Source of the DNA: Collimonas arenae | Lineage (GTDB): Bacteria > Pseudomonadota > Gammaproteobacteria > Burkholderiales > Burkholderiaceae_D | Reading direction: 5' to 3' | Assembly (NCBI RefSeq): GCF_000786695.1 | Contig: NZ_CP009962.1 | Coordinates: forward strand, 5,456,001-5,520,000 | Length of the DNA: 64,000 nt | Shown: one piece after another, positions 19,960 through 31,262 of the stretch | How the letters are laid out: every line of letters begins with the position of its first letter | Position numbering within the stretch: the stretch's first letter is position 1 | Position numbers and translations under genes: made by a program | The notes under the pieces: model-generated | The model's input: the letters and a program-made list of their open reading frames with translations, nothing else | Told to the model about the DNA's origin: nothing | Database searches by the model: none

Positions 19960-20361
19960 ATGGAATCAATGGTTAAGCGGACGCAGCGCGATTATGGATT
20001 GGCCTTTAAATTGGCAGTGGTAGAACAGGTAGAAAAAGGCGAACTGAGCTATATAGAGGCGCAGCGCCGATATGGCATACAAGGTAGATCGACGGTACTG
20101 GTATGGTTGCGGAAATACGGTCATCAGGATTGGAGTGGCCAATCGAGCCGTAAGACTGTGGAGTTCGCAATGGGAAACGAGGTAAAGAAAGTGCTCACGC
20201 CGGAACAGCGCATCAAGGAATTGGAGGCACAACTCAAGGCTGCCAATGAGAAAGCGCAGCTGTTTGAGGCCATGATCGATGTTCTGAAGAAGGATTACGG
20301 AGTACGCATCGTAAAAAAGCCTTTGGGCAGGTCCTCTCACAAAGGCTCGTCGAAGGATTGA
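19960..20361 (+). CDS. IS3-family OrfA
   Basis: 133 residues: N-terminal helix-turn-helix (LAFKLAVVEQVEKGELSYIE, then RYGIQGRSTVLVWLRKYG) and a C-terminal coiled coil (IKELEAQLKAANEKAQLFEAM, in part). It binds the inverted repeats and negatively regulates transposition. A canonical slippery heptamer A AAA AAG at 20313-20319 is in phase for -1 frameshifting into orfB, giving the OrfAB transposase. Ribosome site AAGGAGAAGTCA. Confidence 0.93.
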   Translation: MESMVKRTQRDYGLAFKLAVVEQVEKGELSYIEAQRRYGIQGRSTVLVWLRKYGHQDWSGQSSRKTVEFAMGNEVKKVLTPEQRIKELEAQLKAANEKAQLFEAMIDVLKKDYGVRIVKKPLGRSSHKGSSKD

Positions 20362-21197
20362 GCGTGAGCAAGGCCTGCGAATATGTTGGCATCAGTCGCC
20401 AAGCATATTACAAACGCCATCAAAGCCAGCAACAAAAAGATGAGCGAGAAGGCAAGATCATTACGTTGGTGAAGCAGGTTCGCTTACGTCAGCCTCGCCT
20501 TGGCACCCGCAAACTTCAACACATCTTGAGTCCGCCGCTGGGCGAGATTGGCGTCAAGCTAGGGCGAGACGGCTTGTTCAATGTGCTACGTAGAGCACGC
20601 CTGCTGGTCGTCCCCCGCCGGGCATATCACAAGACAACCAATAGCCACCATCGTTTCCGCAGGCATCCGAATTTGCTCAAGGATGGACCGTCGAAAATCG
20701 TACCGACTCAGGCTGAGCAGGTCTGGGTGGCCGATATTACCTATCTGCCGACGGCCCAGCGGTTTGCTTATTTGAGTTTGATCACCGACGCCTACTCTAG
20801 AAAGATTGTCGGCTACCATGTCCATGATAGCTTGCAGACCGAGCAAGTAAGCCAAGCACTGAAGATGGCACTAAGAGAACGTCAATCTCGGCAGCAATTG
20901 GTCCATCATTCCGATCGGGGAATGCAATACTGTTCGACCTATTATCAAAAAATTCATGCACGTCACGGTATCACCTGCTCCATGACCGATGGTTATGATT
21001 GTTATCAGAACGCTTTGGCAGAACGCGTTAATGGCATCTTGAAGGGAGAGTTTCTCTTGCAACGACCTGCCAATCTTCAACAGGCAGCCTTAATGGTAAA
21101 ACAATCCGTGCGCATTTATAACGCTGAAAGGCCGCATCTGTCTTTACAATACAAAACGCCCGATGAAATTCATCGGGCGTCTCTGGCTACTATCTGA
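20358..21197 (+). CDS. IS3-family OrfB (DDE transposase)
   Basis: 279 residues from a TTG overlapping the orfA stop; in practice it is expressed as the OrfAB fusion, since the -1 frame is open from 20319 into orfB. The integrase core is intact: first Asp in VWVADITYLPT, second in SLITDAYSRK/HHSDRGMQY region, and Glu in NALAERVNGILKGE. Function: cut and copy transposition of the element. Confidence 0.92.
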   Translation: MSVSKACEYVGISRQAYYKRHQSQQQKDEREGKIITLVKQVRLRQPRLGTRKLQHILSPPLGEIGVKLGRDGLFNVLRRARLLVVPRRAYHKTTNSHHRFRRHPNLLKDGPSKIVPTQAEQVWVADITYLPTAQRFAYLSLITDAYSRKIVGYHVHDSLQTEQVSQALKMALRERQSRQQLVHHSDRGMQYCSTYYQKIHARHGITCSMTDGYDCYQNALAERVNGILKGEFLLQRPANLQQAALMVKQSVRIYNAERPHLSLQYKTPDEIHRASLATI

Positions 21198-21260: not shown

Positions 21261-21836
21261 TTATTTTGCTGCCGGCTCCGAAGCGGCGCTAGCCGCGGCA
21301 GAAGCAGCCGCTGGTGCAGCTGGTGCCGGAACTTCAGGTTCCTTGAACTTGCCGCCGGACTGGTTGGCCATGTAGACCACTGCGCGCGCCACTTCGATAT
21401 CGTCGAGATCAGGATTGCCGCCCTTGGCCGGCATCGCCCGCAGACCGTGCAATGCATAACCAACCACCTTGTCATAGCCATCAGCCAGACGCGGTCCCCA
21501 GGCGCCGGCATCGCCGACCTTTGGCGCACCCGCTGCGCCGGTCGCATGGCAAGCGGAACAAGTAGACTTGAAGACTTCTTCACCGGACAGCAACTGCTTG
21601 GGAGCATTGGCATCCTTGAAGGTAAAACCGGCGTCGGCGACCGGCTGGATACGGGCAGCGATCGCTTCGGGCGTCTGCCCTTCGGAACCTGCACCGACTT
21701 TTTTGCCGGCGGTGACGTATTGCACCAGCAATACAATACAGATGATAGGGACTAAAAAACCGGCTGCAACAGCAATGATCAGTTGCTTAGGCGTCTTGAT
21801 CGCGGATTGATGCTCTTCGTTTTGTGCGTCGCTCAT
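21261..21836 (-). CDS. Membrane-anchored cytochrome c5-type protein
   Basis: 191 residues: N-terminal anchor helix (about 19-41), then a single class I c-type haem domain with the haem site CSACH near residue 92 and an axial Met in LRAMPAKGG. The tail is rich in Ala/Pro/Ser. It likely carries electrons in the periplasm to a terminal oxidase. The IS3 element ends 14 bp beyond its stop, so its native terminator may have been displaced. Confidence 0.9.
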   Translation of the reverse strand: MSDAQNEEHQSAIKTPKQLIIAVAAGFLVPIICIVLLVQYVTAGKKVGAGSEGQTPEAIAARIQPVADAGFTFKDANAPKQLLSGEEVFKSTCSACHATGAAGAPKVGDAGAWGPRLADGYDKVVGYALHGLRAMPAKGGNPDLDDIEVARAVVYMANQSGGKFKEPEVPAPAAPAAASAAASAASEPAAK

Positions 21837-22036: not shown

Positions 22037-22112
22037 GCGGCTGTAGCTCAGTGGATAGAGTATTGGCCTCCGAAGCCAAGGGTCGCTGGTTCGATTCCAG
22101 CCAGCCGCACCA
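22037..22112 (+). tRNA. tRNA-Arg (CCG)
   Basis: 76 nt with encoded CCA. Acceptor GCGGCTG/CAGCCGC, D-arm TAGCTCAGTGGATAGAGT, anticodon loop CTCCGAA with anticodon CCG, T-loop TTCGATT. Confidence 0.97.
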
Positions 22113-22719
22113 GTTTTCCCCATACAAATCAAATACTTAAAAATCGCTTGCAAACCATGCTAGTGCGAACGACCGGCAATTATAGCGGTTCACTGCCCTC
22201 AGATTCCCATCCTATTTGATCGTCCGGGCGACTCCCGTTGCAATTAGCCTCCTTTGGTGCTGACGCAGGAACAGCCGCAGCGTCACTATAAATAGCAAAA
22301 CCTTGCACTAGTTTTACGACCGGCCTACTCCAGAGATACATACACCTTCAATCGTTGAGATTTGCGGAACAGTCTTACAACATCTTTGCGACTCAACAGA
22401 TTTCCAGCAATCCAGATCCTATCAATTTTGACAGTTGTTCAAATCAAGATTGACGAGCAATCTTGCCAAGCACCAAATGCCTTGAGGCAACTAGCTGCAC
22501 ATGCCGATGGCTAAAAAATACAAATGCTGCTCCTGCTTCCCATCTGAATCCCGTTTCATCTTGCTCGATCCTTATCAGCTTGCAAGTCGCACAGCGCGCG
22601 GCTGCTAGCCATGCGCTTTATTGCAGCTGGTAAAAGGCGATAGGTGCCCCAGGCAAGCGTCTTTCCTTGTTTTCGCAAACCGTACTCATTTTCAATGAAG
22701 TTGATACGAAGGAGAAACA
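22113..22719. other. 607-bp gap before the CTQ-like cluster
   Basis: It has lower GC than the flanks. It holds the leader and promoter region of the five-gene cluster, ending in the ribosome site GAAGGAGAAACA before 22720, but I find no clear operator or sigma-54 site. A 35-codon open frame at 22501-22608 (ATG to TAG) encodes a peptide with a CCSC cluster and a C-terminal Cys; it lacks a good ribosome site, so I do not call it a gene. Confidence 0.5.
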
Positions 22720-24279
22720 ATGCAAGCTTCACAAATAAGGCGTCATCTGGGTGGGGCGGCGAAATTGCTGCCGGCCACTACGCCAACCATGCTGGCCGCG
22801 CAAAAACTGACTACGCAAGACGCCGCCAGCGAACAACTGCTTAATCTTGAATTTTCCCCGCGCGATTATGTTGCTTATCTGCTATCCATCGATGCCGAGA
22901 TTGAGCACTGCCTGATGGTGCAGTATCTGTACGCTGCCTATTCGCTGGGCGGACCGCAGGTGCCGTCGCAGTTTCGCGACGCCGTGCGCAGCTGGCAGGA
23001 AGTGATCCTGGGCATTGCCAAAGAGGAAATGGGGCACTTGATTTCGGTGCAAAACGTGCTGCGCCTGATCGGCGCGCCGCTGCACTTCGAGCGCGAAGAC
23101 TATCCCTGGGATGTGCCGTTTTACCCCTTCCCGTTCATGCTGCAGCCGCTGACCCTGGATTCGCTGGCCAAGTATGTCTACACGGAAGCCGCCGTGGACT
23201 GGAAAGGCGGCGCGCTGGGCGACGAAATCCGGGCGCGGGTGGCGACCCAGACGTCGAATCCGCATCAGGTGGCGGAATTGTTCAATACCTTGATTCCGCT
23301 GGTGGAAGATCCGCTGTATTTGCACGATTACGTATTCCAGGCCGACACCTTCTCTTGCCAGGCCAACTTCGCCGAGTGGGGCCGCGGCTACCAGGGCGGC
23401 AATCGCGGCAACAGCACCGACACCGCCACGGAAAAGACCGTGACCAGGACGCCAGATGTGCTGGTGGTGCCGGTGACTTGCCGCGACGATGCTGTCAACG
23501 CCTTGAAGGCCATCGCCAAGCAGGGTGAAGCGCCGCATGGCTCGACGCCGTCGCATTTCGTGCGTTTTTTGCGGGTGTACGTCGAAATGCGCGCGGCGCA
23601 GACCCATCAGGCCTGCAGCCTGGAACTGTGGAACAACGCCCGTCCTGCCGATTTTCTGGAGGATGCCTGGACGCGCTCCTACCCGGACATGGCTTCTGCG
23701 CCGCAGGCCAACGCCGCACCGTGGAGCGCTTCGCGCCCGGTGGCGGTCAATCCGTATGTGTCGCTGGATAGCGACGAGGAACCCGAGCAAGACGGCACGC
23801 CTACCACGCCGATTACCCATCCGGAATCAGCACTGTGGGCCTCTTTGCACAACGTACGTTATCGCATGTTGCTGACCTACTTGATCCACAGCTTCACGCT
23901 GTACGGTGGGTTGAATGCGGCGGGTTTGATCACACCGCGCGGCACCATCGTGAATGCGACGTTTGGCGAAATGTACAACCTGCGCGCCATTTCGGAAATC
24001 CTGATGCAGTCACCGGTCTCCGCCACCGATCCGGAAGCCGGATTCGCGGGGCCACCATTTCAGATGCCCTACACCCTGAACAGTGCATTTAGTGAAGCGG
24101 ATCGCTGGATCGGACATCTCGACCTGCTTAACGCATCCGAGGGGTTGATCGCCGCACTGCTGCTCACCAGCAGCCCGGCGCGCCACGCCTATTTGCACAG
24201 TTTGCGCGAAGCGGATAAAAACATGATCGCGATTGCGACGCGTATTTTGTCCGGCAGCATTGATCCAGCCTTGCTCTAG
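22720..24279 (+). CDS. Ferritin-like protein (VioB-type domain)
   Basis: 519 residues. An N-terminal ferritin-like domain (about 45-290) has di-iron-type helices: AEIEHCLMVQYLYAAYSL near residue 60 and ILGIAKEEMGHLISVQN near 95, an ExxH pair typical of the family that includes the ferritin-like domain of VioB/RebD (iminophenylpyruvate dimer synthases). The C-terminal part (from about 365) is helical and unassigned. It is the first gene of a five-gene unit, 9 bp from the next. Its role there may be oxidative chemistry on the neighbouring CTQ-type protein or on the product; this is inference. Confidence 0.75.
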   Translation: MQASQIRRHLGGAAKLLPATTPTMLAAQKLTTQDAASEQLLNLEFSPRDYVAYLLSIDAEIEHCLMVQYLYAAYSLGGPQVPSQFRDAVRSWQEVILGIAKEEMGHLISVQNVLRLIGAPLHFEREDYPWDVPFYPFPFMLQPLTLDSLAKYVYTEAAVDWKGGALGDEIRARVATQTSNPHQVAELFNTLIPLVEDPLYLHDYVFQADTFSCQANFAEWGRGYQGGNRGNSTDTATEKTVTRTPDVLVVPVTCRDDAVNALKAIAKQGEAPHGSTPSHFVRFLRVYVEMRAAQTHQACSLELWNNARPADFLEDAWTRSYPDMASAPQANAAPWSASRPVAVNPYVSLDSDEEPEQDGTPTTPITHPESALWASLHNVRYRMLLTYLIHSFTLYGGLNAAGLITPRGTIVNATFGEMYNLRAISEILMQSPVSATDPEAGFAGPPFQMPYTLNSAFSEADRWIGHLDLLNASEGLIAALLLTSSPARHAYLHSLREADKNMIAIATRILSGSIDPALL

Positions 24280-24288
24280 GAGCCGATT

Positions 24289-25704
24289 ATGCCGATATTA
24301 GAACTCCGTATCCTGCCGCCGATCGCCATCGGACGGCTAGGCGCTGCAACCACGCCGCTGGAAGCATTCGATCTGGAAATCAACCCCGACCAGCCCTTTG
24401 ATTATCGCCGCATCGTGCCACGGCCAAGTTTTGAAATCGATCCGCAAAGCGGAGAGATTGTGCGCTGCTATGTGCCGGAAACCATACGCTTCAAGGACGA
24501 CAACAAAAAGATCCGGCCCGTGGCGCCCTTCCTGGAAGTCTACGCCCGCACCAGCGAAGCGCCGTTGGAACTGCAGCCATTGACGCTGGCCTTGCTGGCG
24601 GCGGAAGGCCTGGATCTGACGGCGCTGCATTGGGATATCGACCTGGGCAATATCAAGATCTATCGTCGCACCAACAACGAAAACGACAAAATCGAGGCCA
24701 GCCTGCACACCCTGAAAGATCACCGGCGACATGCAATCGTCGGCAGCTGCCCGAACTTTCACCATGATAAACGGCTGCCGCTGGGCTTTATCCAGTTTAT
24801 CAAGCCAAGCGACGAATTTCCGGAAATCCGCCTGCGCTACACGCCGGCCGCAGGCATCGTCTACGGCACCCGCATGAAACGGCGCGAATCGTACCAGGAC
24901 CTGGAGCTGCACGACGACCCTGTAATCGATCACCACGACTTGGTGCTGTACGACGAAACAAGGGGCGACTGGCTGAACTACAGCGAAAGCACCGGCCCTA
25001 CCCTGACCAACCCGGCCGGAATCTACGCCGGCTATGCGGACAAGGATGGCAACCAGGTCAGCTGGGGCTACCTGGACGACGAATGCGACGGCGTGGCGCG
25101 CATCGGCCTGACCCGCAAGGACGGTAGCCAGCTTTGGGCGCATGGCTATATCGGCGCCGGTCCGCCGGCCTTTGCCCCCGATACGCTGCCTATCCGGGTC
25201 GTGTCGGATGAAATGGAGCAGATCCTGTACGGTCCCGAAGTCGCCGAGGAAAGCGTCTCGCTGGATGCCGCCACGGAAATCGTCTTGCGCGCCTTGGAAA
25301 CCGTGCGCCTGATGAATACCGCCGTGATGAACGGCAATCCGGTCAACGGCCAGCTAAACGTGGCAAGCACCATGGTGCGCCAGAACAGCGCCGACTTTGA
25401 ACGCTATTACGAACCGATTGCAGCGCCGTCGATCGTCGACAACCTGGCTTTGCGCGCCCTGCACGAACGCGTCTTCAGCACCCTGACCGCCGGCGGCGCG
25501 CCATGGTTCGCCAAGGTATTGCGCCAGCCTGAAGAAATCGGCGACCTGTCGTCGGAAGGATTGCGCAAGATGCCGGCCCTGATGCGCGGCGCCGATGGCC
25601 GCAGCCTGACGCTGACCCGGCGTCACATCAACATGGTGATCAAGGCGGCCCGCAACGCGATGTTTGGCCAAACCCATCCAGACGGAGACCACAATGTCCG
25701 CTAA
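24289..25704 (+). CDS. LodA-like N-terminal subunit (split CTQ oxidase, inferred)
   Basis: 471 residues. The start ILPPIAIGRLGAATTPLEAF and the later RFKDDNKKIRPVAPFLEVY match the N-terminal features of LodA/GoxA oxidases (HPSIGVARLG-type start, then FKDEAG..RRQ). Its length equals the part of LodA that precedes the CTQ-forming Cys. It contains no CTQ-region motifs of its own. Its 3' end overlaps the next gene by 11 bp, in a different frame, and that gene supplies the missing C-terminal part. I infer a two-subunit LodA-type enzyme; an alternative is an accessory scaffold. No signal peptide. Confidence 0.65.
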   Translation: MPILELRILPPIAIGRLGAATTPLEAFDLEINPDQPFDYRRIVPRPSFEIDPQSGEIVRCYVPETIRFKDDNKKIRPVAPFLEVYARTSEAPLELQPLTLALLAAEGLDLTALHWDIDLGNIKIYRRTNNENDKIEASLHTLKDHRRHAIVGSCPNFHHDKRLPLGFIQFIKPSDEFPEIRLRYTPAAGIVYGTRMKRRESYQDLELHDDPVIDHHDLVLYDETRGDWLNYSESTGPTLTNPAGIYAGYADKDGNQVSWGYLDDECDGVARIGLTRKDGSQLWAHGYIGAGPPAFAPDTLPIRVVSDEMEQILYGPEVAEESVSLDAATEIVLRALETVRLMNTAVMNGNPVNGQLNVASTMVRQNSADFERYYEPIAAPSIVDNLALRALHERVFSTLTAGGAPWFAKVLRQPEEIGDLSSEGLRKMPALMRGADGRSLTLTRRHINMVIKAARNAMFGQTHPDGDHNVR

Positions 25705-26518
25705 AAACATGACGATCCGCGCCAATAACCTGACGGCGCAAATCCACCATCGCGGCGCGGGAAACCCTGCTTCGGTGCTGCCTCGCAGCGCCATCTCCAA
25801 TTGCTTTCCGGGCCTGGAATTCGATTTCCGGAACCTGTGGCGACGCGCCTTTGAAGGCATTGTCCTGGTCGAGAACAACAACTACGTGGTGCATGCCGAA
25901 CCGCCGTTCCAACACCTGGCGACGCGTCGCCTGCTACGCTTTGCCGGCCTGGATGTCGGCACCATGGTGGCGACCAGCGGACCGGTATACCCTAACGGCT
26001 CCTCCGGCACGCTGGCCAGCGCCGCCAATCCGAATGCCGTGTCGTTCATGGAATGGTCGAATTCATTTGCCCGCATCATCCATCTGCAAGGGCAGCAGGT
26101 CGAATGCGAATTCACCACCTACGCCAACGCCACCGACGAAGTGCTGGTGACGAAGGACACCGAAACGCTCAAGGTCAACCTGACCATGCGCCGTTTCTTC
26201 GAAGCGGAAAGCGCCACCATCAACACCGACATGCTGCAACCGGGCGAACTGACGCAAGGCTTGTGCGCACCCTGGCAAAACGATTATCGCGAATGCGCCT
26301 GTTATTACTGGGCGGCGTCACGCCCCGATTATGTCAATGTGGAGCCGGGCCAGGATGGTCTGTCCAAAGGTGACATGTGGTTCGCCAAGAAACGCACCGG
26401 CACCTACATCCCCGACAACCGGGTAGATACACGCTTGTGGTCTTACGATGACTTGTTCAAATCCTGGCAAGAAGACCTGCAATTCGTGATTCGCGGGAAA
26501 GATGCCGATGAAGCATGA
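25694..26518 (+). CDS. LodA-like C-terminal subunit carrying candidate CTQ residues
   Basis: 274 residues. Cys37 lies in SAISNCFPGLEFDF, which aligns with the MCPGIEM segment that holds the CTQ cysteine of LodA. Trp194 lies in PGELTQGLCAPWQNDYREC, which aligns with the LodA PGDLTKRMACPWQADF segment that holds the CTQ tryptophan; YYWAASRPD follows as in LodA. So both cofactor-forming residues are present although the large N-terminal part is in a separate gene. Expected role: catalytic subunit of an amine or amino-acid oxidase. Start ATG 25694 behind GACGGAGACC; overlaps the next gene. Confidence 0.7.
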   Translation: MSAKNMTIRANNLTAQIHHRGAGNPASVLPRSAISNCFPGLEFDFRNLWRRAFEGIVLVENNNYVVHAEPPFQHLATRRLLRFAGLDVGTMVATSGPVYPNGSSGTLASAANPNAVSFMEWSNSFARIIHLQGQQVECEFTTYANATDEVLVTKDTETLKVNLTMRRFFEAESATINTDMLQPGELTQGLCAPWQNDYRECACYYWAASRPDYVNVEPGQDGLSKGDMWFAKKRTGTYIPDNRVDTRLWSYDDLFKSWQEDLQFVIRGKDADEA

Positions 26519-27947
26519 CCAGCTGGCGCTGCACGCTGCCGAACCGATTCCGGCGCCTTTGGTCGATGCCGCGCTGGCGGCCGGCATGGCGCCTGCGCTG
26601 GCGGCGCGCATCGTCGAAGCATCGCGGCCACGCCAGCGCGACGCCCACCTGATCGACGATGCGCAAGGCGCGCAGCTACTGATGGTGAACGGTAGTCGCC
26701 TGTTTCATTTGCCGCCAGAGCTGGTGGCGGAATTCCGGATGGCGCTGGATGCGCAGGACGATAGCCTGGTGCAAGGCCTGATCGCCAGCAGCGGCCTGCA
26801 AATGGCGCCGCTGATCGATGACGTGCCACTGGCCGCGCCGCCAGTGCACGCGCTGTCGCTGGCGATTGCGCAAAAATGCAATCTGGGTTGCACCTATTGC
26901 TATGCGCAACAAGGCGAATTTGGCGGCAAAGCCAAGAACATGGAGCTGGAAACGGCGCAGCAGGCAGTCGATCTGCTGCTGCGCAAAGCTGCGCCCGGGG
27001 CCAAGGTCAACCTGGCTTTCATGGGCGGCGAACCGCTGGCGAATCGCCCTGCTTTGCGCGCTGTCACCTCCTATGCGCAAGAACAGGCCCGGCAGCGAGG
27101 CGTCAATTGCCATTTTTCGATCACGACCAATGGCACGTTATTGCAAGCGGACGACGCTGACTTTTTCGAAGAACACGGTTTCGCTGTGACGGTCAGCCTG
27201 GATGGCCCCTCAGAGCAGCACAATCGCCTGCGTCCGTTCAAGGGCGGCAAAGGTTCGTTCGATAAAATTATCGAACGACTCGCGCCGCTGCTGGAACGCC
27301 AGCGCCAGATGCAGGTATCGGCGCGGGTCACGGTGACGCCGTTTAATCTGAACTTGCCGCAAACGCTGGACCTGTTTATCGGCATGGGCTTCCATAGCGT
27401 CGGCTTTTCGCCATTGCTGCGCGCCTCGAACGGCCAGGCGGAAATGGGGCCGGAGGATATGGAAGAGATGCTACAGGGTATGATCGCCTGCGGCCTGGCG
27501 TTTGAGCAAAATGTCATGCTGGGGCGACGCTATCCCTTCATGAACATGCAAAACGCCCTGCGCGAAATTCAGCGCGGCACCCATCGCCCCTACCCTTGCG
27601 GTGCCGGCGCCGGCTATTTCGGCGTATCTGCAGAAGGTGAATTATCGGCTTGCCATCGCTTCGTTGGCGACGAAGCCGGCAAGATGGGAAATCTGGCCGA
27701 GGGCGTCGATCAGGCGCGCCAGACCGTGTGGCTGGAACAGCGCCACGTACATCAGCAACAGCCTTGCAATGCCTGCTGGGCACGCTATCTGTGCGGCGGC
27801 GGCTGCCATCACGAGGTGCTGGCGCGGGGCCGCAGCGCCTGCGACTATATCCGCGGCTGGCTGCATTACACCATCGGCGCCCACGGCCGTCTCGGCCAGC
27901 TGGCGCCCGCCTGGTTTGCCGATCCGGGCAACGCCGACGGCGATTAG
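26502..27947 (+). CDS. Radical SAM/SPASM maturase (QhpD/PeaB-like)
   Basis: 481 residues. The radical SAM cluster motif CNLGCTYCY has Cys126, Cys130 and Cys133; a GGEP motif follows (FMGGEPLANRP). The C-terminal SPASM region has PCGAG, SACHRFVGDEAGKMG and CNACWARYLCGGGCHHEV, then a late CDY. This layout fits QhpD/PeaB, which forms thioether cross-links in the small subunit of quinohemoprotein amine dehydrogenase. Known LodA systems do not use such an enzyme. The ATG overlaps the upstream gene by 17 bp; 26508 is an alternative start. Confidence 0.85.
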   Translation: MPMKHDQLALHAAEPIPAPLVDAALAAGMAPALAARIVEASRPRQRDAHLIDDAQGAQLLMVNGSRLFHLPPELVAEFRMALDAQDDSLVQGLIASSGLQMAPLIDDVPLAAPPVHALSLAIAQKCNLGCTYCYAQQGEFGGKAKNMELETAQQAVDLLLRKAAPGAKVNLAFMGGEPLANRPALRAVTSYAQEQARQRGVNCHFSITTNGTLLQADDADFFEEHGFAVTVSLDGPSEQHNRLRPFKGGKGSFDKIIERLAPLLERQRQMQVSARVTVTPFNLNLPQTLDLFIGMGFHSVGFSPLLRASNGQAEMGPEDMEEMLQGMIACGLAFEQNVMLGRRYPFMNMQNALREIQRGTHRPYPCGAGAGYFGVSAEGELSACHRFVGDEAGKMGNLAEGVDQARQTVWLEQRHVHQQQPCNACWARYLCGGGCHHEVLARGRSACDYIRGWLHYTIGAHGRLGQLAPAWFADPGNADGD

Positions 27948-27949
27948 CG

Positions 27950-29449
27950 GTGAGCCGTCAGGTCGACATGTTCGTGATCGGCGCCGGCCCTGCCGGGCTG
28001 TGCGCAGCGCTGCGTCTGCAGCAGCTCGGCTATCGCGTGATGTTGATCGAGCGCAGCGCCGTCTGGCCGCGCGCCCAGATCGGCGAAGCCCTGACGCCGG
28101 GAGTAAAAAACATCATCGCATTCCTGGACGCCAACGACGCCATGGAACATGTCCCGCATCTGACCCGCTTGCCGACGCGCTTGAGCTGGCGCAGCAAGAC
28201 AGTGGAAACGGTGGCGCATGCCGATGCCGCCGTGGTCGACCGCGCGGCTTTCGATGCGGCCTTGCTGCAACTGGCCAAGGCGCGCGGGATCGAGGTGCAT
28301 CAGCCGGCCGCCCTGGACAGCATCACCGGCGGCGCGGGTGCCTGGCAACTGGCCTTTTCAACGCCCGGTGCCACGCATCTGGTCAAGGCACGGATGATTC
28401 TTGACGCTCAGGGACGCCAGGGCAAACCGGCCCAACAGTTGCTCAGCGCGCCACGTTTATCCGCCATGTGGGTGGAAATTGCGGAAAATCACATTCCCGC
28501 CGATATGGCGCATGTCACCCAGGTTGAAGCGCTTGCGCATGGCTGGTTATGGGGCACGCGCTTGCCGGACCGGCGTTATCGCGTCATGTTGTTATCCGAT
28601 CCGGCTACCTCGCGCCAGCTGCATGCGGGCGAACCGGAATCGTGGCTACGCAGTCAATGCGCCGCCAGTACTTTGTTCGCGGATGTGGCCCAACAGCAAT
28701 TTTCCAGCTCGCTACAGATGTGCTCCGCGACCCCCTATGTGGCACTGAACAGCTGGCAGGATGGCCGTATCAAACTTGGCGATGCGGCATTTGCGCTGGA
28801 TCCGATATCCTCCTCCGGCGTGGAAAAGGCCATGCGCTTTTCCTTGCAGGCAGCGCTTGCGGTGCATACCTTTTGCCAGGCGGACAATCCGGCGCAGCAA
28901 ACCCTGGCGCATGAGTTCTATCAGCAACGCCTGCTTGAAACCTGCGCCCGCCATCATTTCTGGACCACAGCATATTATCGGCAAGCCTGGTGTAGCGAAC
29001 AGCCATTTTGGCGTAGCCGCTCGATATCGTCGCTTGCTTCATCATCGCTCGCATCGGCAGCCAGCAATCCAGAATCTCGTCTCATGACGGACGCACTGCA
29101 ACTGGAAATGGATCGCTTGGAAAACTATCGTGAGCCAGTGTTGCAGGCAGGTCCCGGAATACAAGGTGACCAGATGATCCGCTTTCATCCTGCGGTAGAA
29201 ATAGTGCCTTTGCCCTGCGCGATGGCCGATAAGGTCAAATTATTGCCGGCCATGCGGCATCCGCATCTGGAGCGTCCCCTGGCCTTTTGGGAAAACGAAG
29301 CCGTGCTGCCACGCCTGGAGATATTGTCACAACAAACCCGCTTGGCTTCGGCGCGCGATCTGCTGGGTCAAACCATGGGTTTGCAAAAAGCCCAGCGCCT
29401 GCTGACCTGGTTGTGGCAGCGCGGCTTGCTTGAAGTTGTCAGCCATTGA
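27950..29449 (+). CDS. FAD-dependent monooxygenase (LodB/QhpG-like)
   Basis: 499 residues from a GTG 2 bp after the radical SAM stop; ATG 27968 is possible but too close to the FAD loop. FAD-binding GAGPAG at residues 11-16, and a GDAAFALDPISSSGVEKAM motif near 277, as in LodB, QhpG and tryptophan-halogenase-like flavoproteins. LodB and QhpG hydroxylate the protein tryptophan that becomes CTQ, so here it probably modifies Trp194 of the C-terminal subunit. A C-terminal extension of about 110 residues has no assignment. Its end overlaps the convergent repair gene by 11 bp. Confidence 0.82.
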   Translation: MSRQVDMFVIGAGPAGLCAALRLQQLGYRVMLIERSAVWPRAQIGEALTPGVKNIIAFLDANDAMEHVPHLTRLPTRLSWRSKTVETVAHADAAVVDRAAFDAALLQLAKARGIEVHQPAALDSITGGAGAWQLAFSTPGATHLVKARMILDAQGRQGKPAQQLLSAPRLSAMWVEIAENHIPADMAHVTQVEALAHGWLWGTRLPDRRYRVMLLSDPATSRQLHAGEPESWLRSQCAASTLFADVAQQQFSSSLQMCSATPYVALNSWQDGRIKLGDAAFALDPISSSGVEKAMRFSLQAALAVHTFCQADNPAQQTLAHEFYQQRLLETCARHHFWTTAYYRQAWCSEQPFWRSRSISSLASSSLASAASNPESRLMTDALQLEMDRLENYREPVLQAGPGIQGDQMIRFHPAVEIVPLPCAMADKVKLLPAMRHPHLERPLAFWENEAVLPRLEILSQQTRLASARDLLGQTMGLQKAQRLLTWLWQRGLLEVVSH

Positions 29450-30926
29450 CAGCCAGCGAAGCCCAAAGATGCTGCGCCGCATAGGCGCGCCAGGGCCGCC
29501 AGGCTTCTGCACGTATGGCTAGCTCTTTGGCATTTGGCCGAGTCCCGCCTTCATGCAGCGCAATCGCATTCATCAACGCCACATCCGCGGCTGGAAACGC
29601 ATCCGGTTCGCGCAAATGCCGCAATGCGATGTAGTGCGCAGTCCAGTCGCCGATGCCGGGCAGCTCGCACATCTTTTGCACCGCTTCGCCCAGGCTGGCG
29701 CGGCCATCCAGCAATTGCGGATCGGCTACCAACGCAGCCGCTATCGCCGACAAGGTTGCCGCGCGCGATTTCGGCATGCCTAGCAGCGCCAGATCCGCCA
29801 ATGCGACGTGCGCAGGTTGCGGAAATACATGGCTGAGGCCGGGACGATCCGCGCATTGTTCCCGCAGCGCTTCGCCATGTTGCGCCACCAGTTTGGCGGC
29901 CAGCCGGATCGCACCGGCTACGGTAATCTGCTGCCCCAGCACGGCGCGCATCGCCAGTTCAAAACCATCCCAGGCACCTGGCAGGCGCAAGCCGGAGCGC
30001 GCTGCGGTCAGTGCCGCCATCAAAGGATCAGCGCTCAATTGCTGGTTGATGGCTTGCGGATCGGCGGCCAAGTCGAACATTCTTCTGAGGCGGGCGATGA
30101 TGGCCGGCAGCGACGCCAGCCGCGGAAAACGAATGGTGGCTTGCAGCGCATGGCCGGCGCCCTGTTGCACCAGCACCGTGCCTTGCACGCCGTCGAGACA
30201 GATGCTGCGGGAATAACTGCTGTCGGACACCAGTTCCAGGCCGTTGATGGCACGCGCCTTGAAAAAGGCCAGCATGGCCGGCCAGTCGTAAGGTGGACGG
30301 TAACGTAGCAGGAGCGTCACCTCGCCTTGAGCGCCGGCCGATTGTTCGGGCTGGGCGCTACGCCGCAAGGCGCTGGGCGGACGTTGATACAGGCCATGGA
30401 ACACTTCGTTAAAACGACGCACGCTGCCGAAGCCGGCAGCGAAGGCGATTTCAGTGAAGGGCATGCGGGTTTCGTGGATCAGCTGCTTGGCCAGCAATAC
30501 GCGGCGGGTCTGCGCCACGGTGACCGGCGATGCGCCTACATGCTGCACAAACAGACGGCGCAGCTGCCGCTCGCCCAGACCGAGACGATCTGCCAGCGCA
30601 TCCATGCCGGCCTCATCCAATGCCCCCATTTCGATCAGCGCCAACGCCCGCGCCACAGCATGCGAGACGCCTGTATTCGAGACACCGCGCCAGGCGCCGG
30701 AGTCGGGCGCGGCTTCGGGTCGGCAGCGCAAACAAGGACGGAAACCGGCTTCCTGGGCTGCGGCGGCGCTGGCAAAAAACAAGACGTTTTCCGATTTGGC
30801 GGTGCGTGCCGGGCAAATCGGCCGGCAATAGATACCCGTAGTTTTGACAGCGATAAAGAACCTGCCGTCAAAGCGCACATCGCGGCTGGCCAGCGCCCGG
30901 TAGCAGGTGTCGTGATCGAGTTCCAT
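29439..30926 (-). CDS. Bifunctional AlkA/Ada-type DNA repair protein and regulator
   Basis: 495 residues. N-terminal Ada-like zinc domain (TGIYCRPICPART and FRPCLRCRPE), an AraC helix-turn-helix region (ADRLGLGERQLRRLFVQHVG and EIAFAAGFGSVRRFN), then an AlkA 3-methyladenine glycosylase with the HhH-GPD motif (MCELPGIGDWTAHYIALR) and a catalytic Asp in PAADVALM. It removes alkylated bases and may act as an alkylation-responsive activator. The start at 30926 (MELDHDTCYRALASRD) is the family start; a longer frame extends upstream. Confidence 0.93.
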   Translation of the reverse strand: MELDHDTCYRALASRDVRFDGRFFIAVKTTGIYCRPICPARTAKSENVLFFASAAAAQEAGFRPCLRCRPEAAPDSGAWRGVSNTGVSHAVARALALIEMGALDEAGMDALADRLGLGERQLRRLFVQHVGASPVTVAQTRRVLLAKQLIHETRMPFTEIAFAAGFGSVRRFNEVFHGLYQRPPSALRRSAQPEQSAGAQGEVTLLLRYRPPYDWPAMLAFFKARAINGLELVSDSSYSRSICLDGVQGTVLVQQGAGHALQATIRFPRLASLPAIIARLRRMFDLAADPQAINQQLSADPLMAALTAARSGLRLPGAWDGFELAMRAVLGQQITVAGAIRLAAKLVAQHGEALREQCADRPGLSHVFPQPAHVALADLALLGMPKSRAATLSAIAAALVADPQLLDGRASLGEAVQKMCELPGIGDWTAHYIALRHLREPDAFPAADVALMNAIALHEGGTRPNAKELAIRAEAWRPWRAYAAQHLWASLAVNG

Positions 30927-31011
30927 GGCGGCATGATCGCGCCATCGGCTGGCAGTGTCTAGCGGTTTTCGGACATGAGCATTGCGACAATAAATACGGC
31001 AGCGACGGTGA

Positions 31012-31262
31012 AAATCAATCAGGCGCATCAGCACCGCGCTGCATGGTCAGCTCAGCCTGACGGCGTTGTCTGGCGCACCCTCGGCTTCAATCATGGTCGA
31101 GGCTGGTGCGCATCGCGTCAGCCTCGGCGTCTGTCCGATGCTGGCGGCGATGGGCACGATCCGGGATATTACGTTGGAAGTAAGGAAAACAGCAGCTGGG
31201 AAGCCATGCGGCGCAGTTTCTATGGTTTCGACCAGGCTGAGGCGCTATTTTCCATTGAGGCC
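31012..31262 (+). pseudogene. Remnant of PEP mutase/isocitrate lyase family gene
   Basis: In one frame 31024-31200 reads RRISTALHGQLSLTALSGAP then SIMVEAGAHRVSLGVCPMLA and MGTIRDITLEVRKTAAG, typical of the C-terminus of isocitrate lyase/phosphoenolpyruvate mutase-family proteins. The last stretch (SSWEAMRRSFYGFDQAEALF, about 31190-31256) continues in another frame, so there is a frameshift near 31195. The main body of the gene is absent; the repair gene now abuts it. It overlaps the 3' end of the minus-strand gene at 31245. Confidence 0.7.

Follow-up and report, generated by a model that had tools for sequence, protein, structure and literature searches.

We describe here a five-gene cassette at positions 22720-29449 of a 64,000-nucleotide stretch of Collimonas arenae DNA (contig NZ_CP009962.1, positions 5,456,001 to 5,520,000; this whole stretch is called the window below), which encodes a ferritin-like protein (FER), two LodA-like proteins (LN and LC), a QhpD-like radical SAM/SPASM enzyme (SAM) and a QhpG-type flavoprotein (FMO). 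The reading that we favor, and regard as likely, is that the radical SAM enzyme furnishes a LodA-fold protein with a thioether cage and that the cysteine tryptophylquinone (CTQ) of this protein would be matured by the QhpG-like flavoprotein. It draws on gene order, homology, residue conservation and the co-occurrence of a cysteine pair in LC with the radical SAM gene, each of which is observed across the loci compared below. As a preliminary description of this DNA had it, all five genes are open reading frames of the + strand that overlap their neighbors or abut them with short gaps:

22720..24279, + strand: FER, 519 aa, ferritin-like protein (PF12902, E 1.2e-24), a proposed diiron partner of putative role
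24289..25704, + strand: LN, 471 aa, N-terminal half of a LodA-type protein (weak match to the GoxA model in the family scan, E 9e-4)
25694..26518, + strand: LC, 274 aa, C-terminal half with the predicted CTQ site and a QhpC-like crosslink core (LodA_C, 26.5 bits, narrowly above the cut-off of 25; alignment to 3weu)
26502..27947, + strand: SAM, 481 aa, radical SAM/SPASM enzyme of a sister clade of QhpD (TIGR03906, E 1e-97)
27950..29449, + strand: FMO, 499 aa, FAD monooxygenase of QhpG type (NF049967, 298.8 bits; GTG start, with an ATG at 27968)

Also in line with the preliminary description, no heme subunit is found among the five genes; neither diheme alpha or beta subunits nor QhpE or QhpF are encoded there, the remaining genome not having been searched for them. 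Where LC is separate from LN in annotated plasmid records, its gene is labeled as a hypothetical protein.

Recurrence of the gene order

Relatives were collected by tblastn of LC on plasmids, which gave 19 records (14 used, five near-duplicates left out), and by scanning genome contigs with an LC alignment and Cys/Trp patterns, from which the best 80 of 200 relatives were taken; together these form a set of 94 loci, whose phyla were taken from the record title, the taxonomy line or the label in the tree. The survey of gene order that the preliminary description had proposed finds the cassette widely: 34/94 loci read FER, LN, LC, SAM, FMO and another 40/94 read FER, LN/LC fused, SAM, FMO. This order is far beyond chance, and the cassette occurs in eight phyla (Pseudomonadota, Bacteroidota, Planctomycetota, Verrucomicrobiota, Myxococcota, Acidobacteriota, Actinomycetota and Cyanobacteriota). 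A named relative is Collimonas humicola (locus L060), the LC of which is 96% identical to that of the window. In viral contigs no relative was found.

The cluster holds the radical SAM gene in 92/94 loci and FER in 83/94. In L117, an apparent exception with no radical SAM gene beside LC, that gene sits upstream of FER and is cut by the locus end, and no FMO was found within the locus; in L135 the contig stops just after LC, so that presence of the radical SAM gene cannot be judged. FER was not found near L036 or L083. A distal group (L037-L042) has the order LN, SAM, LC, and a ferritin-like domain forms the C-terminus of LC in the members of this group and its kin that were tested (L037, L041, L042 and L168); the first gene of L039 carries a ferritin-like domain as well.

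LN and LC as halves of one LodA-type protein

In 45/94 loci a single gene encodes both LN and LC, and in 49/94 they are separate genes. A profile built from the fused form has colinear PDB matches to LodA (E 3.3e-6) and GoxA (E 4.1e-5); single-sequence PDB searches were unproductive. Because of this fusion and of these profile matches, LN and LC are, by sequence comparison, the two halves of one LodA-type protein. When 18 fused members were scanned at E<=0.1, LodA_C matched 18/18 and LodA_N only 3/18, the LodA model 18/18, the GoxA model 17/18 and QH_gamma 5/18. The earlier claim of two LodA-like parts is thus borne out for both LN and LC, by the fused profile and by the model scans. Membership of the LodA or GoxA equivalogs themselves is a different matter, with scores of 12 to 17 bits against cut-offs of 600 and 750.

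The predicted CTQ site and a QhpC-like core in LC

The CTQ of LodA is formed by Cys516 and Trp581 (PMC4417212), and QhpC carries the bonds Cys7-Glu16, Cys27-Asp33 and Cys41-Asp49 in addition to a Cys37-Trp43 CTQ (PMC8172795; Cys41-Asp49 and Trp43 also in PMC7876137); these papers and those cited below are represented here by excerpts. All four QhpC residue pairs, three thioether and one CTQ, have counterparts in LC by alignment, the bonds themselves being predictions:

25802..25819, + strand: LC Cys37...Glu42 (NCFPGLE), counterpart of QhpC Cys7/Glu16, predicted optional thioether; Glu42 in 95/95 and Cys37 in 91/95 aligned LCs
26264..26284, + strand: LC Cys191 to Asp197, counterpart of QhpC Cys27/Asp33, Asp197 corresponding to LodA Asp512; predicted thioether; 95/95
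26294..26311, + strand: LC Cys201 and Trp206, predicted CTQ pair, corresponding to LodA Cys516/Trp581 and QhpC Cys37/Trp43
26300..26329, + strand: LC Cys203 to Asp212, counterpart of QhpC Cys41/Asp49, predicted thioether; 95/95

Even the profile of LC alone aligns with LodA 496-518 (E 0.022), placing LodA Asp512 and Cys516 on LC Asp197 and Cys201, and the Trp206 stretch corresponds to the W(W)PAxxP motif of LodA-like proteins. LC Trp194 aligns with LodA Trp509. The preliminary description had chosen Cys37 and Trp194 as the CTQ pair, an assignment that the LodA and QhpC alignments rule out together with the Cys37 substitutions given below; the site is predicted instead at Cys201 and Trp206, with Asp197. 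E42, C191, D197, C201, C203, W206 and D212 are each present in 95/95 aligned LCs.

Nine QhpC sequences, taken from annotated or model-found qhpC loci with the frame chosen using part of the QhpC motif, all read C..PGWE..C-x5-D-x3-C-x3-C-x-W-x5-D, and LC reads C-x-PGLE..C-x5-D-x3-C-x-C-x2-W-x5-D; the PGWE of the 9/9 QhpC is PG[ICA]E in LodA-like proteins. At this core, by hhalign, LC is connected to LodA-like proteins (E 1e-7, 94%) and LodA-like proteins to QhpC (E 4e-5, 70%), and LC matches the QhpC model NF037958 at E 0.047. In a column-shuffle control, one score exceeded the observed one in each of three sets (60, 60 and 40 shuffles). When the LC-QhpC control was repeated with 200 shuffles, the outlier was an 8-column numerical artefact and the next best score was 31.2 against an observed 33.6, a diagnosis that covers the LC-QhpC set, one of the three. 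The preliminary description had stated that no QhpC-like peptide was present. This holds for the genome, in which NF037958 has no match, but it misses the main point, because the QhpC-like core sits inside LC.

Ahead of PGxE, a loose [PA]xNxxA motif (window 25694-25740) occurs in 77/95 LCs, 8/9 QhpC leaders and 1/21 LodA-like proteins. It is possible that this N-terminal motif is a docking site for the radical SAM enzyme, shared with QhpC.

The preliminary description had also entertained a new ribosomally made, cross-linked product, and LC could conceivably be the precursor of a secreted peptide or protein of this kind rather than part of an enzyme. A radical SAM enzyme and a flavoprotein do adjoin a Cys-bearing substrate with a leader-like motif near its N-terminus, and a C25-family cysteine peptidase and a serine protease lie near the cassette in two rhizobia (L031 and L041). 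However, what stands next to the radical SAM gene is not a short precursor with a variable core but a large conserved domain with many invariant residues, which forms one chain with LN in nearly half of the loci, the entire chain being LodA-like, and neither a protease nor an exporter is encoded among the five operon genes. Such a product is not needed to explain the cassette; on the fusion evidence we reject it, and consider it very improbable.

The two maturases

For the radical SAM enzyme of the window, 77 NCBIfam models were matched. The top one is TIGR03906 (QhpD/PeaB), in agreement with the preliminary assignment, although at 327.8 bits it stays under the equivalog cut-off of 453, and PapB is second; QhpD and PapB are both formers of Cys-to-Asp/Glu thioethers (PMC8172795). 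Trees were built from 38 (radical SAM) and 36 (FMO) of the 94 system loci, with the congener L060 standing in for the window. The 38 radical SAM proteins form one clade (95/98), sister to six QhpD (100/98), with long outgroups. By tree and model score, the enzyme is a member of a sister clade of QhpD and not a QhpD equivalog. An anti-phage defense function was considered and rejected, the only pointers to it being viperin-like matches of 56 and 43.5 bits.

The flavoprotein of the window exceeds the QhpG equivalog cut-off (298.8 bits against 240) and falls far short of that for LodB (123.6 against 400). In the FMO tree, 31 system proteins form one clade (100/97) whose nearest relatives are five flavoproteins of qhp loci (the one compared with the QhpG model, L183, scored 528.7 bits), and 21 LodB-like proteins form a separate clade (99/96); the qhp-locus flavoprotein of L186 and five distal FMOs fall elsewhere, mostly on long branches. 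QhpG was also the top NCBIfam model for 7/7 further system FMOs, three of which lie over the cut-off of 240, one at 239.5, and three distal ones far under. Tree and model scores thus group the flavoprotein with QhpG and not with LodB, so that only the QhpG half of its earlier label, LodB/QhpG-like, stands.

Co-occurrence of the cysteine pair with the radical SAM gene

Because the contig scan had used Cys/Trp patterns, the test for co-occurrence was restricted to loci found otherwise, comprising 32 loci without motif selection, the window included. They remained from 42 after removal of L018-L024, which matched weakly, off the core or as LodA-like proteins, and of L026-L028, each a second part of a gene already represented by L016, L017 or L025. 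C191, C201 and C203 are present in 32/32 of their LCs, and the radical SAM gene is adjacent in 32/32. For comparison, 22 LodA-like loci were assembled, 19 from PF18417 matches and three from weak LC matches (G415 and G564 were left out). All 22 have a flavoprotein, and a QhpD-like radical SAM enzyme above 25 bits was found in the operon of none; L159 has a 67-bit radical SAM protein on the opposite strand, apart from the operon. At the position of C191, the 21 LodA-like proteins measured have Ala (18) or Gly (3), and the 22nd, L156, also has Ala; the position of C203 is never Cys in the 21, and in the 20 of these 21 where the stretch from the CTQ Cys to the Trp motif was readable, it contains no further Cys. 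These loci are related by descent, and the counts of 32/32 and 0/22 are therefore not to be taken as independent events. Two LodA-like proteins, L167 and L172, have 1256-residue frames and a short, LC-like spacing from C to W, with neither extra Cys nor radical SAM gene; that of L167 is fused to PF14518.

A radical SAM protein of this type (E<=1e-50) occurs in 22 of 392 genomes of the family, of which 17 have LC, four have a QhpC over cut-off adjoining the radical SAM gene and one (G781) has a deletion remnant; no precursor elsewhere turned up. One Novosphingobium plasmid holds both a QhpC/QhpD locus (L186) and the cassette (L033). The G781 remnant (L190) retains FER and radical SAM pieces in one frame and FMO in two frames, with LN and LC gone, and a second such remnant (L191) lies beside a full system elsewhere in the G726 genome. 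At both sites, the maturases decay together with their LN/LC substrate.

These data also bear on the explanation that two unrelated gene sets are chance neighbors and that the radical SAM enzyme serves another substrate. It can be said in its favor that the C. arenae genome was searched for QhpC only and not for every possible small precursor. Yet the same set recurs in eight phyla with the radical SAM gene in the cluster or, once, upstream of it in every locus but one on too short a contig, the cassette decays jointly, and the own genome has no QhpC; contradicted by this co-conservation, chance proximity is scarcely credible.

The ferritin-like protein

The preliminary description had called FER a VioB-type ferritin-like protein. 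The domain is there (PF12902), but identity with VioB is rejected, FER reaching 15.4 bits on the VioB equivalog model against a cut-off of 1250. In an alignment of the window protein with 80 relatives scoring >200 bits, E62, E102, E103, H106, E156, E270 and H279 are identical in 81/81 sequences. A FER-like gene accompanies a LodA-like gene and a flavoprotein gene, and no radical SAM gene, at L171, a locus from the family of the window genome, and PF12902 genes lie beside fungal lodA-like genes in a 2015 survey (PMC4417212). On account of these two cases, FER seems to be associated with the LodA-type enzyme and not with the radical SAM enzyme. VioB and RebD couple imines that an amino-acid oxidase has produced. 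By analogy, this suggests a tandem role for FER after the oxidase.

A competing assignment would make FER a third maturase that adds the first oxygen to Trp206 in place of FMO, which would then act in the second step as LodB does. The Trp on which LodB and GoxB act has already been hydroxylated once, the first hydroxylation in LodA and GoxA being a separate reaction thought to be autocatalytic (PMC7876137), and the frequency of FER in the cluster (83/94) and its invariant E/ExxH residues would fit such a function. Against this, the FER-like genes at L171 and at the fungal loci do without a radical SAM enzyme, L036 and L083 appear to do without FER, and QhpG alone dihydroxylates its Trp, in a radical SAM-crosslinked protein (PMC7876137). 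We consider this assignment decidedly improbable, and continue to favor FMO as the enzyme that would act on Trp206.

Genomic setting

The operon is present in 3/15 members of the genus, and its copies in two congeners, with 82% DNA identity, lie at different chromosomal sites. The only sequence outside the operon that is common to those sites is the following:

22416..22466, + strand: upstream stretch of 51 bases, shared with the operon in two congeners (88% identity, E 1.5e-12); holds TTGACAGTTGTTCAA

It contains a TTGA-N7-TCAA inverted repeat and is possibly a promoter or operator. In the window, the operon lies between tRNA-Arg(CCG) (22037-22112) and a genus-conserved gene (29439-31034) that, judged by eye, resembles a DNA repair gene of the Ada/AlkA type; L202, one of the two congeners with the operon elsewhere, has the tRNA-Arg and the neighboring gene without the operon between them. 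A - strand open reading frame at 21261-21836 resembles by eye a small c-type cytochrome (CxxCH). It seems to stand outside the system, because a congener whose corresponding site has no operon retains part of this frame there. Further upstream (20358-21197) lies what was judged by eye to be an IS3-type transposase frame.

Elsewhere, an Azospirillum argentinense plasmid (L187, 4457-7963) carries an LN-sized hypothetical gene and a short radical SAM gene with an IS3 transposase directly after it; this is apparently a distal-type system in decay. A DyP-type peroxidase with a hypothetical partner lies near the cassette on a Rhizobium plasmid (L041), and a pair resembling it by eye is found in an Acidobacteriaceae bin (L117).

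Proposed mechanism and its alternatives

The chemical steps, the substrate and the role of FER, which we infer from the residues and relatives described above, could be as follows. LN and LC would come together as a single LodA-fold quinoprotein. The QhpD-like radical SAM enzyme, acting before or while this happens, would form Cys-to-Asp/Glu thioethers in LC, namely C191-D197, C203-D212 and, where Cys37 is present, C37-E42, and these would cage the cofactor site as in the gamma subunit of quinohemoprotein amine dehydrogenase (QHNDH). The QhpG-like flavoprotein would then dihydroxylate Trp206, and Trp206 would join Cys201 to give the CTQ. The mature enzyme would most likely oxidize an amine or amino acid with O2, like LodA and GoxA, to an imine or ketoacid and H2O2, and FER probably acts on the oxidase product or on the peroxide.

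Several observations weigh against this model. Taken alone, the direct similarity of LC to QhpC is modest (hhalign E 1.5e-4, probability 52%), the QHNDH gamma chain 1jmx_G appears only at E 5.6 in the PDB profile search, and the spacings of LC and QhpC differ (C37-E42 5/9, C201-W206 5/6, C203-D212 9/8). Cys37 is replaced in 4/95 LCs (Ser in L032, Phe in L036, Ala in L133 and L135). Furthermore, 80 of the 95 aligned LCs came from scan patterns that include C201/W206, and cysteine conservation in these contig loci is partly built in, because they were found with Cys/Trp patterns. As for the maturases, L012, one of the 32 loci of the clean set, has its radical SAM gene in two frames, the sister relation of the system FMOs to QhpG has a support of 96/77, under the tree program's own threshold, and the flavoprotein of the distal branch L037-L042 is weakly similar or uncertain.

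Some of these points could be accommodated if the radical SAM enzyme made another modification of LC, such as the Cys201-Trp206 link or a Cys-Cys or C-C crosslink, and if C191 and C203 served only as a disulfide or in metal binding. The spacing unlike that of QhpC and the score under the QhpD cut-off would agree with this, as would the many kinds of crosslinks made by SPASM relatives among the 77 models matched. Nevertheless, the two best of these models, QhpD and then PapB, both stand for thioether formation (PMC8172795), and invariant E42, D197 and D212 accompany the cysteines, for which reason we judge another modification unlikely and prefer the thioether cage.

Beyond the mechanism, we see about an even chance that the cassette represents a third class of CTQ enzymes, a LodA-fold oxidase with a QhpC-type cage made by a radical SAM enzyme, and with it a living intermediate. 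LodA and the QHNDH gamma subunit would then derive from one CTQ protein, gain or loss of the cage would track the radical SAM enzyme, and the N-terminus of LC would keep an uncleaved docking motif like that of the QhpC leader.

The routes by which LodA/GoxA and QHNDH arrive at their common cofactor have been described as different, and a widespread LodA-type body with residues and maturases of the QHNDH type would point to a common origin of CTQ enzymes. If the proposal is true, a radical SAM enzyme modifies a protein much larger than QhpC, and the purpose of the thioether cage becomes testable by comparing caged with uncaged LodA-type enzymes. Among the literature matches listed, in a search outside which most subscription papers lie, none links LodA-like proteins with a radical SAM maturase; given that coverage, the absence of a prior report is weak evidence of novelty. 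The QhpG paper (PMC7876137) alone among these matches has both "LodB" and "radical SAM", and its excerpt treats them as separate systems. The word "radical" is absent from the main text of the 2015 LodA survey (PMC4417212), and the excerpts of PMC8351635, PMC12605379 and PMC9850906 have no bearing on the link.

Comparison with known systems

FER shares the PF12902 domain with the ferritin-like domain of VioB, but is about half as long as VioB and scores far under its model. With the ranthipeptide maturases (PapB, SCIFF), the radical SAM enzyme shares PapB as its second-best model and the predicted Cys-Asp/Glu thioether chemistry, whereas its proposed substrate is a large conserved protein and not a short peptide.

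The closest parallels are with the two families of CTQ enzymes. Like the oxidases LodA and GoxA with LodB and GoxB, the cassette has the CTQ residues and a flavoprotein partner, as well as the signature ILPPIAIGRLG, DDxCDG, PGxE, PG[DE]LT...PWQxD...C...W. It differs from them in that its LodA-type protein is split into two genes in 49/94 loci, scores far under the LodA and GoxA equivalog cut-offs and adds two Cys with their acidic partners, and in that it has a QhpD-like radical SAM enzyme and a flavoprotein of the QhpG clade, not of the LodB clade. With QHNDH (QhpA-G), it has in common the QhpD-like radical SAM enzyme, the QhpG-like monooxygenase and, matching the QhpC core, a counterpart for each of its four residue pairs, but the heme alpha, the beta and the small gamma subunits, the QhpE protease and the QhpF exporter are missing from its five genes, and the predicted crosslink core is placed in a large LodA-type protein. 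The cassette thus joins two enzyme families that have so far been treated as separate.

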